DNA of 18,837 bases from Dermatophilus congolensis (GTDB taxonomy: Bacteria > Actinomycetota > Actinomycetes > Actinomycetales > Dermatophilaceae). The stretch lies in assembly GCA_030538115.1 (NCBI GenBank), contig JAUNUP010000030.1, positions 16,698-35,534 of the forward strand, given 5' to 3'. A program made the translations under genes and the position numbers. Below the pieces are notes generated by a model, which saw nothing but the letters and a program-made list of their open reading frames with translations, did no database searches and had not been told where the DNA came from. Positions 1,373 through 7,330 of the stretch are shown piece by piece (positions within the stretch are counted from its first letter, which is position 1; the number at the start of each line of letters is the position of its first letter).

Positions 1373-2377
1373 TCAGGCCGTGACCTTCTCACCGAACAGA
1401 GTGGACTGGCCGGTAACCGGGCGCAGGCCTGTCAGGCGGTCACGATATGAGGAGCGCGACGCCACCTGCGCGTAGTACGACGCCTTCCGGCGAGCCACCG
1501 CGCCACCGGCATTCGTCGGAATATCCACGAGCTCGGGAGAGAGTTGCGAGTTCATTCCGTCGCGCAGCATCTTCAACGCCTCCGCGCGCATCTGCGAGAT
1601 GCGCGACTCGGTGACACCCAGCTCGGCGGCGAGATCGCGCATCGGCCGATCCTCGAAAAAGCAGCCGCGCACCACGGCGCGCAGTCGTTCGGGAAGAACG
1701 GCGATCGCGTCACGCAAATACGCCCGGCGCTCACGGGCGAGCAAAGTCGCCTCGGGAGTCGCAGAGGTCGACGGAAGAATCGCGTCGAGACCTCGACCTT
1801 CGCCGGAATTGTCCATGATCACGTCGAGACGCAGAACCACCGACGAATGCAGGTCGGCATCCAACCGATCGACGTCACTCACCGACACTCCGAGGGCATC
1901 GGCAACCTCGCCCGTCGACGGTCGACGCCCCAGGTCGGCGGCCAATTCGTCGTGCACGGCATCGCGGCGACGCACCTTGCTCCGCAACGAACGCGTCGCC
2001 CAATCTGCCGAGCGCAATTCGTCGAGCAGCGCACCTCGAATACGACGCACCGCATAGCGACCGAAAGGCACGCCGAGCGACGGATCGAAAGATCGAGCCG
2101 CGGCGGCGAGTGCTGCCATTCCGGCAGAAACGAGGTCATCCATGTACACGTGGCCGGGCAGGCGAGAGCCGATCGACCTCACTTCGAAATGCACCAACGG
2201 CACGTGAGCCCGACACAACTCGTCGACATCCACGACGTCCCCGACATTCCCGAACTCCACGGCATGGACGGCATCTGCGGCATCCGCAACGTCGGAGACT
2301 GATTCGTCCACGGGTTGCAGACGGAGCCTGGGCACGGTCTCGGCGGCCAGGTGGTCGGAATGAGTAAAGGCGGTCAC
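1373..2377 (-). CDS. Sigma-70 family factor, sigma-28 (FliA/WhiG) class, copy 1 with long N-terminal extension
   Basis: Start chosen at GTG 2377 (334 aa) because the paralogue at 4525-5406 begins with the same GTG-ACC-GC. A TTG three codons upstream is possible. The first ~47 residues are an Ala/Val/Asp-rich extension. Region 2 follows (DDLVSAGMAALAAAARSFDP, then VPFGRYAVRRIRGALLDELR, then DWATRSLRSK), matching the WhiG/FliA pattern GALLDELRSxDW-RS. Region 3 has RRPSTGEVADALGVS. Region 4 has LPERLRAVVRGCFFEDRPM and the HTH LAAELGVTESRISQMRAEAL. About 60 further residues follow region 4, a tail shared with the paralogue. In actinobacteria this class directs flagellar or sporulation genes; with flgN-fliW-csrA nearby, flagellar control is favoured. 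No FlgM-like anti-sigma factor is visible. The ribosome site is weak. Whether it is truly FliA rather than a WhiG-like developmental factor cannot be settled here. Confidence 0.9.
   Translation of the reverse strand: MTAFTHSDHLAAETVPRLRLQPVDESVSDVADAADAVHAVEFGNVGDVVDVDELCRAHVPLVHFEVRSIGSRLPGHVYMDDLVSAGMAALAAAARSFDPSLGVPFGRYAVRRIRGALLDELRSADWATRSLRSKVRRRDAVHDELAADLGRRPSTGEVADALGVSVSDVDRLDADLHSSVVLRLDVIMDNSGEGRGLDAILPSTSATPEATLLARERRAYLRDAIAVLPERLRAVVRGCFFEDRPMRDLAAELGVTESRISQMRAEALKMLRDGMNSQLSPELVDIPTNAGGAVARRKASYYAQVASRSSYRDRLTGLRPVTGQSTLFGEKVTA
1556..1620. repeat. 65-bp exact direct repeat, copy 1 (inside sigma copy 1, region 4)
   Basis: These 65 bases are identical to 4699-4763 in the second sigma gene, with a mismatch immediately on each side. 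The surrounding sigma-gene DNA differs at many synonymous sites, so this block stands out. Confidence 0.9.
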
Positions 2378-2386
2378 AAAACGCAA

Positions 2387-2628: not shown

Positions 2629-2811
2629 GACACCCAACATATAGCGCCTTCGAGGCAAGTGGCCGAAATTACATTCGTGTTGTCACATCACTACACCCGA
2701 ACGAGCGCCTCAGACATCCGTTCATGTGACTCAATCCCCTCAAGCACGAACGGAATCCGCCGATTGGTGTCTCGATCCCTCCCCCTCTTCGGGATCGAGA
2801 ACGGAGGACTC

Positions 2812-4242
2812 GTGTTCGTCTTCGGTGTGCACATCGCCTCGCAGGAGATGTTCGATCGGCACTGCCTGCCGTCGATCGCCGCGTTCGGCGGCCGCGACGC
2901 GACGCTCATCACGACTAGCGACCTCCCGGCCGTGAAGGCGTACAACGACATCATCGAGGCCGCCGCCGCCATGGACGGCGTCGATGCGATCGTGCTGCTG
3001 CGTGAACACACCGAGATCACCGATCCGCTGTTCATGATCAAGGTGACGAAGGCGCTCTCCGAGAATCCGGGTCTCGACATCCTCGGCCCTGCCAGCAGCG
3101 ACGACCCTGATGCGCCCGATGTGACATGCCTCGTAATGCGCCCGTCGGTGCCGAGCAAGGTGCGGTTCGACGACGAACGTTTCACGGAGGCAGCACAGGC
3201 GAGCGGTTTCGACGCCGACCTGCTGCGCCGCGCCTCCGAACTTGGCCTGCGTGTGGGCACGGTGCCGATCACGATCCGCCTCCACGATGCAGCCGAGTTG
3301 GCCAGCCAGAGCGCTCGTCGCACGAGCGGCATCGCGGCCGGCGGAACGGCCGGACTGACCACGTTCGAGAGCGCCGCCGTGGCGTGGCAGGGTCGGGCCG
3401 CGCACCGCATCACGAAGTCGCTACTGGAACGGTGGCGCGACCAGACCGGCGGCAACGCCGCCACGCAGCGCCCGCACGACGACCTCGCACCCAACGCCCC
3501 CACCCCGGGGCCCACGAGCAACAACATCCCGATCGCCGAGGCGTACGCCCTCGAACGCGCTGAGCTGATCAATCACGTGCCGACCACGGCCGAGCGGGTG
3601 CTCGACGTGTCGTGCGGCTCCGGGGCACGGGGCGAGGCGATCAAGCAGGCGACGGGCGCCTACGTCGTCGGCATCGAGGCGGCCGAGTCGCTCGCCGACG
3701 CGGCGCGCACCCGCATCGACGAGGTCTGGCAGATCGACCTCAACGAGACCACCGACCTGCCCCAGAGCGAGCCGTTCGACGCGATCGTCGTCTCCGGCAC
3801 CCTCGAGCGCCTGGTGGATCCCGAAGCCGTGCTGACGGAGCTGACCACACGCTTGGCGCCCGACGGCATCCTCATCGCGACGGTGCCGAACATCAAGCAC
3901 TGGTCGATCATGCTGCCGCTGCTGGTGCAAGACCGGTTCGAATACTCCGAGAACGGCTCGATCCGCCCCTCCAGCCTGCGCTTCTTCACGATGATCGAGG
4001 CTGCGGCCCTGCTGCGAAAGGCGGGCCTGGGCTGGTGCGAGGCCGCGGCGGCCACCTCGATCCCGCTGGCAGAACCGGAGAAGCTGCTCCCCCTGTTCGA
4101 CGCGCTGGAGACCTTCGGCGTCGACCCGAGCGAGGCCCGCACGTTGTTCGACGCCTACGAATTCGTACTGACGGCACGCCTGACCCGCCCGGAGGAGAAC
4201 ACGACTCCCGAATACGGAGGCGACCCTGGCGGCGAGGCCTGA
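2812..4242 (+). CDS. Glycosyltransferase-like / SAM-dependent methyltransferase fusion protein
   Basis: Start chosen at GTG 2812, with GGAGGA three bases upstream; the product is 476 aa. The N-terminal ~190 residues resemble a degenerate GT-A domain: VFGVHIASQEMFDR, SDLPAVKAYNDIIEAA, VDAIVLLREHTEITDP, and an end FDADLLRRASELGLRVGTV like the family 2 acceptor-side segment. The usual LHDD/DxD metal motif reads LREHTE, so transferase activity is uncertain. The C-terminal half is a class I methyltransferase: motif I VLDVSCGSGARGEAI, acidic residue in VVGIEA, DAIVVSGTLERLVDP, then the ATVPNIKHWSIMLPLL and LRFFTMIEAAALLRKAGL signatures typical of methyltransferases in glycan clusters. It converges with the second sigma gene and is flanked by both sigma genes. 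Modification of flagellin or a surface glycan is the likely role, by inference. Confidence 0.82.
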   Translation: MFVFGVHIASQEMFDRHCLPSIAAFGGRDATLITTSDLPAVKAYNDIIEAAAAMDGVDAIVLLREHTEITDPLFMIKVTKALSENPGLDILGPASSDDPDAPDVTCLVMRPSVPSKVRFDDERFTEAAQASGFDADLLRRASELGLRVGTVPITIRLHDAAELASQSARRTSGIAAGGTAGLTTFESAAVAWQGRAAHRITKSLLERWRDQTGGNAATQRPHDDLAPNAPTPGPTSNNIPIAEAYALERAELINHVPTTAERVLDVSCGSGARGEAIKQATGAYVVGIEAAESLADAARTRIDEVWQIDLNETTDLPQSEPFDAIVVSGTLERLVDPEAVLTELTTRLAPDGILIATVPNIKHWSIMLPLLVQDRFEYSENGSIRPSSLRFFTMIEAAALLRKAGLGWCEAAAATSIPLAEPEKLLPLFDALETFGVDPSEARTLFDAYEFVLTARLTRPEENTTPEYGGDPGGEA

Positions 4243-4279
4243 ACAGCACGCAGCCCCTGAAAAGAACATAGACAAAGGA

Positions 4280-4387
4280 CAAGAGCCCTCGGCGCGGTGT
4301 TGGGGGCACCGGAGCCGAGGGCTCTTGCAGGGCCGGCAGGGGGAAAGCCGGCATGCGAGGTGAGGTTGGGGGGCCTCAATCTCGCAT
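4280..4387 (-). ncRNA. Three tandem C-loop hairpins, 6C-RNA-like, downstream of sigma copy 2
   Basis: Read on the minus strand there are three abutting stem-loops. Hairpin A (4387-4353) has outer stem ATGCGAG/CTCGCAT and inner stem TGAGG/CCTCA around loop CCCCCCAA. Hairpin B (4352-4332) has a 6-bp GCCGGC stem around loop TTTCCCCCT. Hairpin C (4327-4280) has a perfect 14-bp outer stem and inner stem CGGTG/CACCG around loop CCCCCAA, followed by a T-rich tract (TCCTTTGTCTATGTTCTTTT). The known actinobacterial 6C RNA has two hairpins with C-rich loops, so this may be a relative or variant. It could equally be the processed 3' UTR and terminator of the sigma gene ending at 4525. Hairpin C also terminates the convergent fusion gene on the plus strand, though with a poor T-run. 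No clear dedicated promoter was found. Confidence 0.5.
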
Positions 4388-4418
4388 CGCAATAAAGTTG
4401 TGGGTCCCTCATCCTTTG

Positions 4419-4458
4419 GATCGGCACGGCAACCGCGATGCTGAGAGGTTTGCCGATC
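4419..4458. repeat. Stem-loop in the convergent gap after sigma copy 2
   Basis: GATCGGCA (4419-4426) and TGCCGATC (4451-4458) are perfect inverted arms. An alternative inner pairing GGCAACC/GGTTTGCC is also possible. It lies between the sigma stop (4525) and the C-loop hairpins and may be part of the same 3' structured RNA. Confidence 0.45.
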
Positions 4459-4524
4459 AGGGCCGGATGCAGCCCAGGTCAGGTCGGCCGACGGGATTTT
4501 TCGGCGTGGCAGGCCCAGACGCGC

Positions 4525-5406
4525 TCAGACTGCGTGGCCCTGCTTGTCGATGTCTTCGTCGCCGGGGGCCAGCGTGAGCCGGTCGCGGTACGAAGAGCGG
4601 GCAGCCACCTGGGCGTAGTACGAGGCCTTGCGACGCGCAACGGCGCCACCTGCGTTGGCCGGCACCTCGACGAGCTCGGGCGAGAGCTGCGAGTTCAGTC
4701 CGTCGCGCAGCATCTTCAACGCCTCCGCGCGCATCTGCGAGATGCGCGACTCGGTGACACCCAACTCCGCGGCGAGCTCGCGCATCGGCCGGTCTTCGAA
4801 GAAGCAGCCGCGCACAACGACGCGGAGGCGCTCGGGAAGAACCTCGATGGCGTCACGGAGGTAGGCGCGACGCTCGCGAGCGATCAGCGTGGCCTCCGGA
4901 GTCGCGGACGACGAGGGAAGAACGGAGTCGGCGCCGACCGAGTCGGTGATGACGTCGAGACGCAGCACCACGGACGAGTGGAGGTCGGCGTCGAGGCGCT
5001 CGACCTCGGCGACGGTGACGCCCAGCGCCTCCGCAACCTCACCCGTCGAAGGACGGCGACCGAGGTCCGCGGCCAACTCGTCGTGTACGGCGTCCCGGCG
5101 GCGCACCTTGCTACGCAGCGAGCGCGTTGCCCAGTCGGCAGAACGCAGCTCGTCGAGCAGCGCGCCACGAATGCGACGCACGGCGTACCGACCGAACGGC
5201 ACTCCGAGAGAAGGGTCGAAAGACCGAGCAGCGGCAGCGAGTGCCGCCATGCCGGCGGATACCAGATCATCCGTATACACGTGTCCTGGCAAACGAGAAC
5301 CTATCGACCTCACCTCAAAGTGCACCAAAGGCACGTGAGCCCGACACAACTCATCAACGTCAACCACGCTCTCAGGGGCGGCGTGGACATCATTAGAAGC
5401 GGTCAC
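4525..5406 (-). CDS. Sigma-70 family factor, sigma-28 (FliA/WhiG) class, copy 2
   Basis: 293 aa from GTG 5406. The ribosome site is weak (GAAGA). From VVDVDEL (residue 14) to the end of region 3 (GEVA) it differs from the copy at 1373-2377 at a single residue in 112 (Thr for Met before DDLVSAG). Differences concentrate in the region 3-4 linker (four residues shorter here), the last ~20 residues, and the N-terminus, which lacks the ~34-residue extension of copy 1. Regions 2 (VPFGRYAVRRIRGALLDELR, DWATRSLRSK) and 4 (LAAELGVTESRISQMRAEAL) are intact, so both proteins should recognise the same promoters. It diverges from flgN across a 554-base gap and converges with the fusion gene. Its position next to flgN-fliW-csrA makes it the better candidate for the flagellar sigma factor. 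Confidence 0.9.
   Translation of the reverse strand: MTASNDVHAAPESVVDVDELCRAHVPLVHFEVRSIGSRLPGHVYTDDLVSAGMAALAAAARSFDPSLGVPFGRYAVRRIRGALLDELRSADWATRSLRSKVRRRDAVHDELAADLGRRPSTGEVAEALGVTVAEVERLDADLHSSVVLRLDVITDSVGADSVLPSSSATPEATLIARERRAYLRDAIEVLPERLRVVVRGCFFEDRPMRELAAELGVTESRISQMRAEALKMLRDGLNSQLSPELVEVPANAGGAVARRKASYYAQVAARSSYRDRLTLAPGDEDIDKQGHAV
4699..4763. repeat. 65-bp exact direct repeat, copy 2 (inside sigma copy 2, region 4)
   Basis: Identical to 1556-1620, in the same orientation, 3,143 bases apart. It spans the region 4 HTH codons and is bounded by mismatches. Recombination between the copies would delete the fusion gene and leave one hybrid sigma gene. Confidence 0.9.
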
Positions 5407-6479: not shown

Positions 6480-6512
6480 TCGCGCGTAAGTCCTAGGGTG
6501 GGAGACCTTTAT

Positions 6513-6914
6513 ATGAGCACGACGACCGTCAATGCCACGCAGGTGGACATCACTCTCGACTCCGGTCTCGTCGGCTTTCCCCTTGCCCAGCATTTCCGTC
6601 TCACGGAGGCGGAGGGTGGCCTGTACGAAATGACGTGCCTCGACATCCCGGACATGGCGTTCGTGGTCGTGGCTCCGAGCCCGTTCTTTCCTGACTACTC
6701 CCCCGTGATCGACCCGGCGACGGCGAACCGTATCGGCTTGGAGAAGCCGGAGGACGCGGTGGTTCTTCTGCTGGTCAACCTGGGTTCGGAGGAAGAGCCG
6801 CCCGGTGCGAACCTCCTGGCTCCGGTGGTCGTGAACATCGCGACGAAGCAGGCAATGCAGGTCGTGCTGGAAGGACAGGAACTGCCGCTGCGCGCCAGCT
6901 TCCCGACTCCGTGA
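6513..6914 (+). CDS. fliW: Flagellar assembly factor FliW
   Basis: 133 aa from ATG 6513 with GGGAG 8 bases upstream; an in-frame GTG at 6498 overlaps that ribosome site and is unlikely. Family signatures are in order: LDSGLVGFPLAQHFRL (residues 16-30), the PSPFFPDY motif (55-62), VLLLVNLGS, and the C-terminal NLLAPVVVNIATKQAMQVVLEG. FliW binds flagellin and, as an allosteric antagonist, binds CsrA, so that flagellin synthesis is tied to export. The adjacent downstream csrA fits this partner-switch exactly. Length is typical. No flagellin gene lies in the window. Confidence 0.95.
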   Translation: MSTTTVNATQVDITLDSGLVGFPLAQHFRLTEAEGGLYEMTCLDIPDMAFVVVAPSPFFPDYSPVIDPATANRIGLEKPEDAVVLLLVNLGSEEEPPGANLLAPVVVNIATKQAMQVVLEGQELPLRASFPTP

Positions 6915-6985
6915 GGTAGTCACCTGTAACCTAACCAGCAGCATCTTTTCTCCGCCCCTCTTCCCCTTCGAGAAAAGGAACGTTC

Positions 6986-7330
6986 GTGCTGGTCCTGAGT
7001 CGACGCCCGCAACAGAGCCTCCTCATCGGACACGACGTTGTCGTGACGGTCTTGGAGGTGAATGGCGACACGGTACGCATCGGCATCAAGGCTCCGGCGG
7101 ATGTCGATATCCATCGCGAAGAGATCTACCGCGATCTCCAGCAGGCGAACAAGGCGGCCGGTGAGGCCAAGCCTGGTTCGGCTGCGGAGTTGGCGCGGCG
7201 GATCCACGCGGGCGCGAAGGGCGGTTCGTCTGAAGCGTCGGCTCCGGCTGCGGCTCCTGCTGCCACACCGAAGCCCGGGCCCGGTAAGCCGGGGCCGCCG
7301 CCTGCCCGCCCAGACGCGGGCGCCAAGTAA
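6986..7330 (+). CDS. csrA: Carbon storage/translational regulator CsrA with long Ala/Pro-rich C-terminal tail
   Basis: 114 aa from GTG 6986; the ribosome site AAAAGGA is also a GGA CsrA-type motif, so autoregulation is possible. Residues 1-55 are a canonical CsrA: MLVLSRRPQQSLLIGHDVVV, VRIGIKAPADVDIHREEIY, with Leu4 and Arg44 (needed for RNA binding in characterised CsrA proteins) both present. The family is usually 60-75 residues; here ~40-55 further residues are a low-complexity Ala/Pro/Gly/Ser tail ending in PGPGKPGPPPARPD, preceded by a charged helix (AAELARRIHAG). In Bacillus the region past the core contacts FliW, so the extension may matter for antagonism; the proline tail itself looks disordered. 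It lies 71 bases after fliW, probably in one transcript with it. Confidence 0.93.
   Translation: MLVLSRRPQQSLLIGHDVVVTVLEVNGDTVRIGIKAPADVDIHREEIYRDLQQANKAAGEAKPGSAAELARRIHAGAKGGSSEASAPAAAPAATPKPGPGKPGPPPARPDAGAK

Follow-up and report, generated by a model that had tools for sequence, protein, structure and literature searches.

An array of hairpins with runs of C in their loops lies downstream of a fliA-type sigma factor gene in Dermatophilus congolensis. Its structure, its conservation and covariation in relatives, and its place after fliA were evident from the analysis of an 18,837-nt stretch of DNA (hereafter, the window) and of related genomes. On balance, we read the array as the gene of a ~145-nt FliA-dependent small RNA that would have its own sigma-28 promoter and C-loops pairing with G-rich leaders. 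The sequences strongly suggest that the transcribed strand is the fliA strand and that the putative promoter is of the sigma-28 type. Such an RNA, apparently undescribed before, would probably be switched on jointly with the flagellar filament genes and, by analogy, would probably act like 6C, by C-loop pairing with G-rich leaders. The features of the locus are listed in Table 1.

Table 1. Positions of the array, its putative promoter, and the neighboring genes in the window.
Feature	Position	Strand	Remarks
-35-like element CTCA of putative sigma-28 promoter	4445-4442	-	16-nt spacer to -10
-10-like element GCCGATCC of putative sigma-28 promoter	4425-4418	-	predicted start near 4411
Hairpin 1 (H1)	4387-4353	-	outer stem ATGCGAG/CTCGCAT, inner stem TGAGG/CCTCA, loop CCCCCCAA
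Hairpin 2 (H2)	4352-4332	-	stem GCCGGC, loop TTTCCCCCT (RNA UCCCCCU)
Hairpin 3 (H3)	4327-4280	-	14-bp outer stem, 5-bp inner stem, loop CCCCCAA; terminator-like
U-rich tail UCCUUUGUCUAUGUUCUUUUC	4279-4259	-	long U run absent; presumed 3′ end
fliA-type sigma factor gene	4525-5406	-	Pfam sigma-70 regions 2, 3, and 4
Second fliA-type gene	1373-2386	-	
Methyltransferase-domain gene	2659-4242	+	convergent with fliA-type gene 4525-5406

The original prediction placed three minus-strand hairpins at 4280-4387, and all three were present there with the loops given in Table 1. It described them as abutting, which holds for H1 and H2 (4353, 4352) but not for H2 and H3, which are 4 nt apart; the tail after the last hairpin, predicted to be T-rich, is U-rich as expected but interrupted. 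The loops of H1, H2, and H3 contain 6, 5, and 5 C, i.e., six C in one loop only. The minus strand from 4420 to 4250 folded at -79.8 kcal/mol, versus -54.8 ± 4.0 for 200 shuffles (z -6.24). The plus strand was likewise stable (z -4.80), which counts against the minus-strand reading. Apart from the array, neither strand of the window had a group of three C-loop hairpins within 200 nt. A terminator scan of 4150-4600 flagged two sites, both on the minus strand, with short stems at 4291-4273. Directly before H1 is a ACTTTRTTGCRATG-like leader stretch (4411-4388) that is common to the window, L001, and L063; it was not seen in the remaining arrays. A short ORF over the array was not favored, since relatives show a 2-nt difference in the H2 loop.

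The upstream gene had been predicted to be of the sigma-28 class. This assignment was borne out by its sigma-70 regions and by FliA proteins among the named homologues in the 120 matches listed, near the top of which were proteins with the source names Dermatophilus, Kineosphaera, Austwickia, and Mobilicoccus. The array begins some way beyond this gene, H1 being 137 nt from its stop codon. On the other side of the sigma gene are flgN, fliW (6498-6914), and csrA (6986-7330). The two fliA-type genes of the window are 85% identical and belong to the same locus. Two fliA matches were present in 8 of the 11 close genomes described below, and both scored alike in G042. The second copy of the window is followed by an ordinary terminator-like hairpin with loop GTCACG. 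In the close group, many fliA genes apparently start with GTGACCGC or a similar sequence and seem to have no ribosome site there, so that the fliA mRNA may be leaderless. A leaderless start seems to apply to the majority of fliA genes in this group.

The distribution of the array was determined in a species-genome scan (25 loci) and a family search of 186 genomes, 26 of which yielded fliA. Eleven of these 26 form a close group with best-hit identity of at least 81% (G001-G007, G018, G027, G028, and G042); its named loci come from a Dermatophilus MAG, Piscicoccus, Austwickia, an Actinomycetota MAG, Agilicoccus, and two Mobilicoccus. Ten of the 11 genomes, all except G027, have a C-loop hairpin array of three to about seven hairpins following one fliA copy. 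A strict detector (stem of at least 5, three hairpins within 200 nt) was positive at 8 of 11 places including the window; L001, L006, and L063 required a looser view or the covariance model. The same detector revealed two further clusters in the 180,878 bases of 12 loci. Outside the close group, no array cluster was observed at 40 fliA loci, two of which were too short downstream (0 of 38 readable loci). These 40 comprised the other 15 loci of the family and 25 of the order, the latter drawn from the 127 matching genomes among 396. Among the genomes examined, the array is restricted to the Dermatophilaceae-type group.

The exceptional genome G027 (L065) is ~96.7% identical to G028 (L063) around the locus. 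In G027, the segment from one fliA copy to the other has been lost, and the C-loop RNA with it; the RNA is therefore dispensable in this one close genome. Alignment blocks of the two genomes overlap within fliA, the pattern that recombination of one copy with the other would leave.

Compensatory changes in relatives, which the original prediction had proposed to look for, were found. The alignment (A3) consisted of the five nearest sequences, from which covariance model R1 was also built, and the covariation evidence rests on these five. Two-sided changes occurred in 12 of 37 pairs, and 89.2% of cells were paired. None of 500 shuffles reached any of the five covariation measures. Slid structures gave 35-51% paired cells, a control that is flattered by the structure having been taken from the window sequence, itself one of the five. 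The two-sided changes affected 5 of 12 pairs in helices 1-3 (H1) and 7 of 19 pairs in H3. The H2 stem was nearly invariant in the five sequences and therefore carried no covariation information; the signal comes from H1 and H3. Mean loop identity was 0.85 (H1), 0.82 (H2), and 1.00 (H3), versus mean stem identity of 0.58 (H1), 0.97 (H2), 0.83 (H3 outer), and 0.52 (H3 inner). Conservation is thus higher in the loops of H1 and H3 than in either the H1 stems or the inner H3 stem.

R1 matched the unseen arrays of L006 (E 3e-5), L007 (E 6e-5), and L064 (E 3e-4). In L004 (E 0.0037) and L003 (E 0.0048), its match covered the 3′ end of the array region. At L066, the array (E 0.1) scored worse than a site that follows the second copy of fliA (E 0.046), which counts against the proposed RNA family. 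The model matched 6 of 186 genomes family-wide and 2 of 396 in the order-wide sample, both already known; these counts are lower bounds, as stricter filters missed the array-bearing genomes G003, G004, G007, G018, and G042, which are distant from R1. There was one place in each genome matched, and a repeat or mobile element was rejected on this ground. The sixth family match (G144, L105, E 0.001) is preceded not by fliA but by an ORF interpreted as encoding the substrate-binding protein of an ABC transporter, and was taken as chance. E values of ~1e-3 arise by chance over 186 genomes, and it is therefore the syntenic place that makes weak R1 matches meaningful. The wobbles in the C-loop stems were counted with both kinds allowed alike. 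There were 14 G-U versus 4 A-C, two of the latter four being in a mis-registered window hairpin; the fliA (minus) strand is therefore favored.

The link to a sigma factor proved to be more specific than originally proposed: besides the fliA neighbor, a sigma-28-type motif (CTCA-N16-GCCGAT), resembling flagellin promoters, is found between fliA and H1. At 14 loci of greater distance, the gene after fliA was judged by its start to be flagellin, and YTCA-N16-GCCGAT lies between the two; the flagellin identity was confirmed by Pfam for G008 and G138. The motif was derived from these flagellin promoters of relatives, and its assignment follows the sigma-28 consensus. A matrix was built from the 14 distant flagellin sites and 7 of the 10 flagellin leaders of the close group, and applied to a segment that starts 60 nt ahead of the fliA stop codon and runs up to the first hairpin. 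With this matrix, some of whose seven close-group training leaders come from genomes that were also tested, the summed motif score of the 11 loci was 109.5, compared with 19.9 ± 11.3 for 400 shuffles (maximum 49.0) and 31.6 for the reverse strand. Eight of 11 loci had p<0.05 (window p 0.0275), with a spacer of 16 in every one; the motif was not found at L006, L007, and L064. The 14-site matrix, which avoids the overlap and in which L067 was mis-registered, gave 88.3 versus 25.5 ± 10.5 and 7 of 11 loci (window p 0.037). The window's own motif match is modest (p 0.03-0.04).

As a control, we scored the regions that follow the second copy of fliA at nine loci and the only copy in G027. Two of these 10 had p<0.05: the window (0.04), and L007 (0.00), where a flagellin-like match sits close downstream. 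The distance from the -10 element to the first hairpin was 46, 49, and 48 nt in the window, L001, and L002, respectively, and variable elsewhere. Variant -10 elements recurred in the flagellin leader of the same genome in G018 (GACGAT) and in G003 and G028 (GTCGAT); such recurrence was not found for G004 and G005. Several flagellin leaders of L076-L088 have a CCACGGANGG-type hairpin together with an AAGGAG ribosome site, an arrangement that resembles two CsrA sites. In the window, fliW and csrA stand together at 6498-7330.

The array could instead be the 3′ UTR of fliA, folded into a terminator and stabilizing hairpins and perhaps processed into an RNA, with no promoter of its own. It does follow fliA on the same strand and end in a terminator-like hairpin, a strong end is expected because the next gene is convergent, and the sigma-28 motif is missing before the array in three of 11 loci. 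We nevertheless regard this explanation as rather unlikely. A terminator alone is not expected to keep C-runs in at least three loops while the stems change; the terminator-like hairpin of the second fliA copy has no C-run in its loop; and a flagellin-type motif precedes the array in the other eight loci. An ordinary bidirectional terminator, with C-loops arising by chance or drift in a GC-rich genome, would fit the converging flanking genes and the further two loose clusters of C-loops detected over 180,878 bases. It is disfavored as improbable, because position and loop sequence are conserved, stems covary, and an array is absent from all 38 readable fliA loci beyond the group. The original prediction, which set such a terminator region against its own reading, was upheld in that the element is structured, covarying, and sigma-linked, with C-run loops. 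Activity of the plus strand, whose G-run loops would serve as a CsrA sponge or whose transcript would be an antisense RNA against the fliA region, we consider extremely improbable. The nearby csrA and fliW and the stable plus-strand fold are in keeping with it, as is the GGA that appears on the plus strand in the H2 loop and in many loops of distant arrays (UCCCC; L004, L006, L007, L063, and L066). Against it are the excess of G-U over A-C wobbles, the lack of GGA on the plus strand in loops 1 and 3 of the window, L001, L002, and L005, and the reverse-strand promoter sum, which is near the shuffle level.

The prediction of a 6C-type RNA failed. The Rfam 6C model (RF01066) gave no gathering-score match in the whole window and none at E<=10 over 4100-4700. 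Elsewhere, 6C-like matches at E<=0.001 were present in seven of eight genomes, i.e., in six of the seven array-bearing genomes G001-G007 and in G008. They exceeded the Rfam cut-off in G003, G004, and G008 and were below it in four genomes; G001 had none. R1 gave no match at E<=1 to the seven 6C loci. The array RNA is distinct from 6C and, judging from the separate 6C-like matches of relatives, is not the 6C gene of its genome. A diverged 6C copy that moved beside fliA would account for the C-run loops and the terminator-like last hairpin, and the loop TCCCCCCAA of the G004 6C match (L028) resembles that of H1. The mutual blindness of the two models and the co-occurrence of array and 6C-like match in six of the seven array-bearing genomes searched make this very improbable, and no intermediates between the two RNAs were seen.

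If the array encodes a FliA-dependent small RNA, transcription would proceed on the fliA strand from the sigma-28 (FliA) promoter near 4445-4418 and end at H3. Given such a promoter, FliA would make the RNA together with flagellin, late in flagellar assembly. We infer that the RNA accumulates, that the C-loops are its active part, and that its targets are G-rich leaders. The stems would present the C-run loops (CCCCCCAA, UCCCCCU, and CCCCCAA) for pairing with G-rich stretches at the ribosome-binding sites of target mRNAs. The pairing would block translation, a step modeled on the C-loops of B11 in Mycobacterium abscessus (PMC10470900).

Targets were sought by scoring loop duplexes against chosen start regions in 118 of 173 ortholog groups from 13 regions/loci. 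No convincing target emerged from these 118 groups. In two of them, half or more of the members (3 of 4 and 2 of 3) had at least five consecutive G ahead of the start; these starts are uncertain, and the window's member of the first group is without such a run. The groups with the best duplex energies had the look of spurious ORFs, and the G-runs close to certain fliA starts were not conserved.

A broader interpretation, which we offer tentatively as possible though doubtful, is that the arrays constitute a new FliA-controlled family confined to the Dermatophilaceae-type group, whose three to about seven C-loops would make the RNA a multivalent anti-Shine-Dalgarno regulator. The RNA would have taken the place after fliA that is occupied, elsewhere in the order, by a flagellin gene under sigma-28 control. 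Translation of mRNAs with G-rich leaders would be slowed as cells turn motile. The loops would overlap those of the cell's own 6C RNA in sequence, and might in this way couple flagellar assembly to a 6C-type network. The host family is known for motile zoospores. No flagellar-regulon small RNA of Actinobacteria was among the literature matches listed, which covered open-access PMC; the array RNA, if real, would be one, with a testable mechanism. If one cell contains two unrelated C-loop RNAs, of which the flagellar sigma factor drives one, it becomes possible to ask whether targets are set by loop sequence alone.

Several known RNAs share features with the array. Sponge RNAs of the CsrB/RsmZ type consist of several short hairpins with one repeated loop motif. 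The array likewise repeats a loop motif over several hairpins and lies near csrA, but the minus-strand loops of the window are C-runs without the GGA repeated in such sponges. Scr3202 (RF02833), a Streptomyces RNA presumably linked to hrdD, was the best sub-threshold match, at H2 and H3 (27.2 bits versus a gathering score of 52, E 0.087). It has C-rich loops and a terminator-like last hairpin as well, with two hairpins in all. Scr3202 exceeded its cut-off in none of 13 genomes, which had four weak matches, none at the fliA locus. G138 has three weak Scr3202-like places (L096, L098, and L099; E 0.004 to 0.05). Membership in 6C and in Scr3202 was rejected, as 6C gave no covariance match at E<=10, Scr3202 stayed below its gathering score, and R1 was blind to the 6C loci.

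6C and B11 resemble the array as actinobacterial hairpins with C-run loops. 6C is defined by two stem-loops with at least six C each (PMC8388888), whereas the array has three or more stem-loops and, in the window, one six-C loop. B11 represses a six-G leader if one of its two C-loops is intact, and mutation of both abolishes the repression (PMC10470900). Small RNAs under a flagellar sigma factor are reported for E. coli (UhpU, MotR, FliX, and FlgO; PMC10578931) and Campylobacter (PMC11187230, PMC4626219); these papers cover E. coli and Campylobacter, not Actinobacteria. The four E. coli RNAs differ from the array RNA in being UTR-derived and Hfq-binding, and resemble it in their control by the flagellar sigma factor, which is putative for the array RNA.
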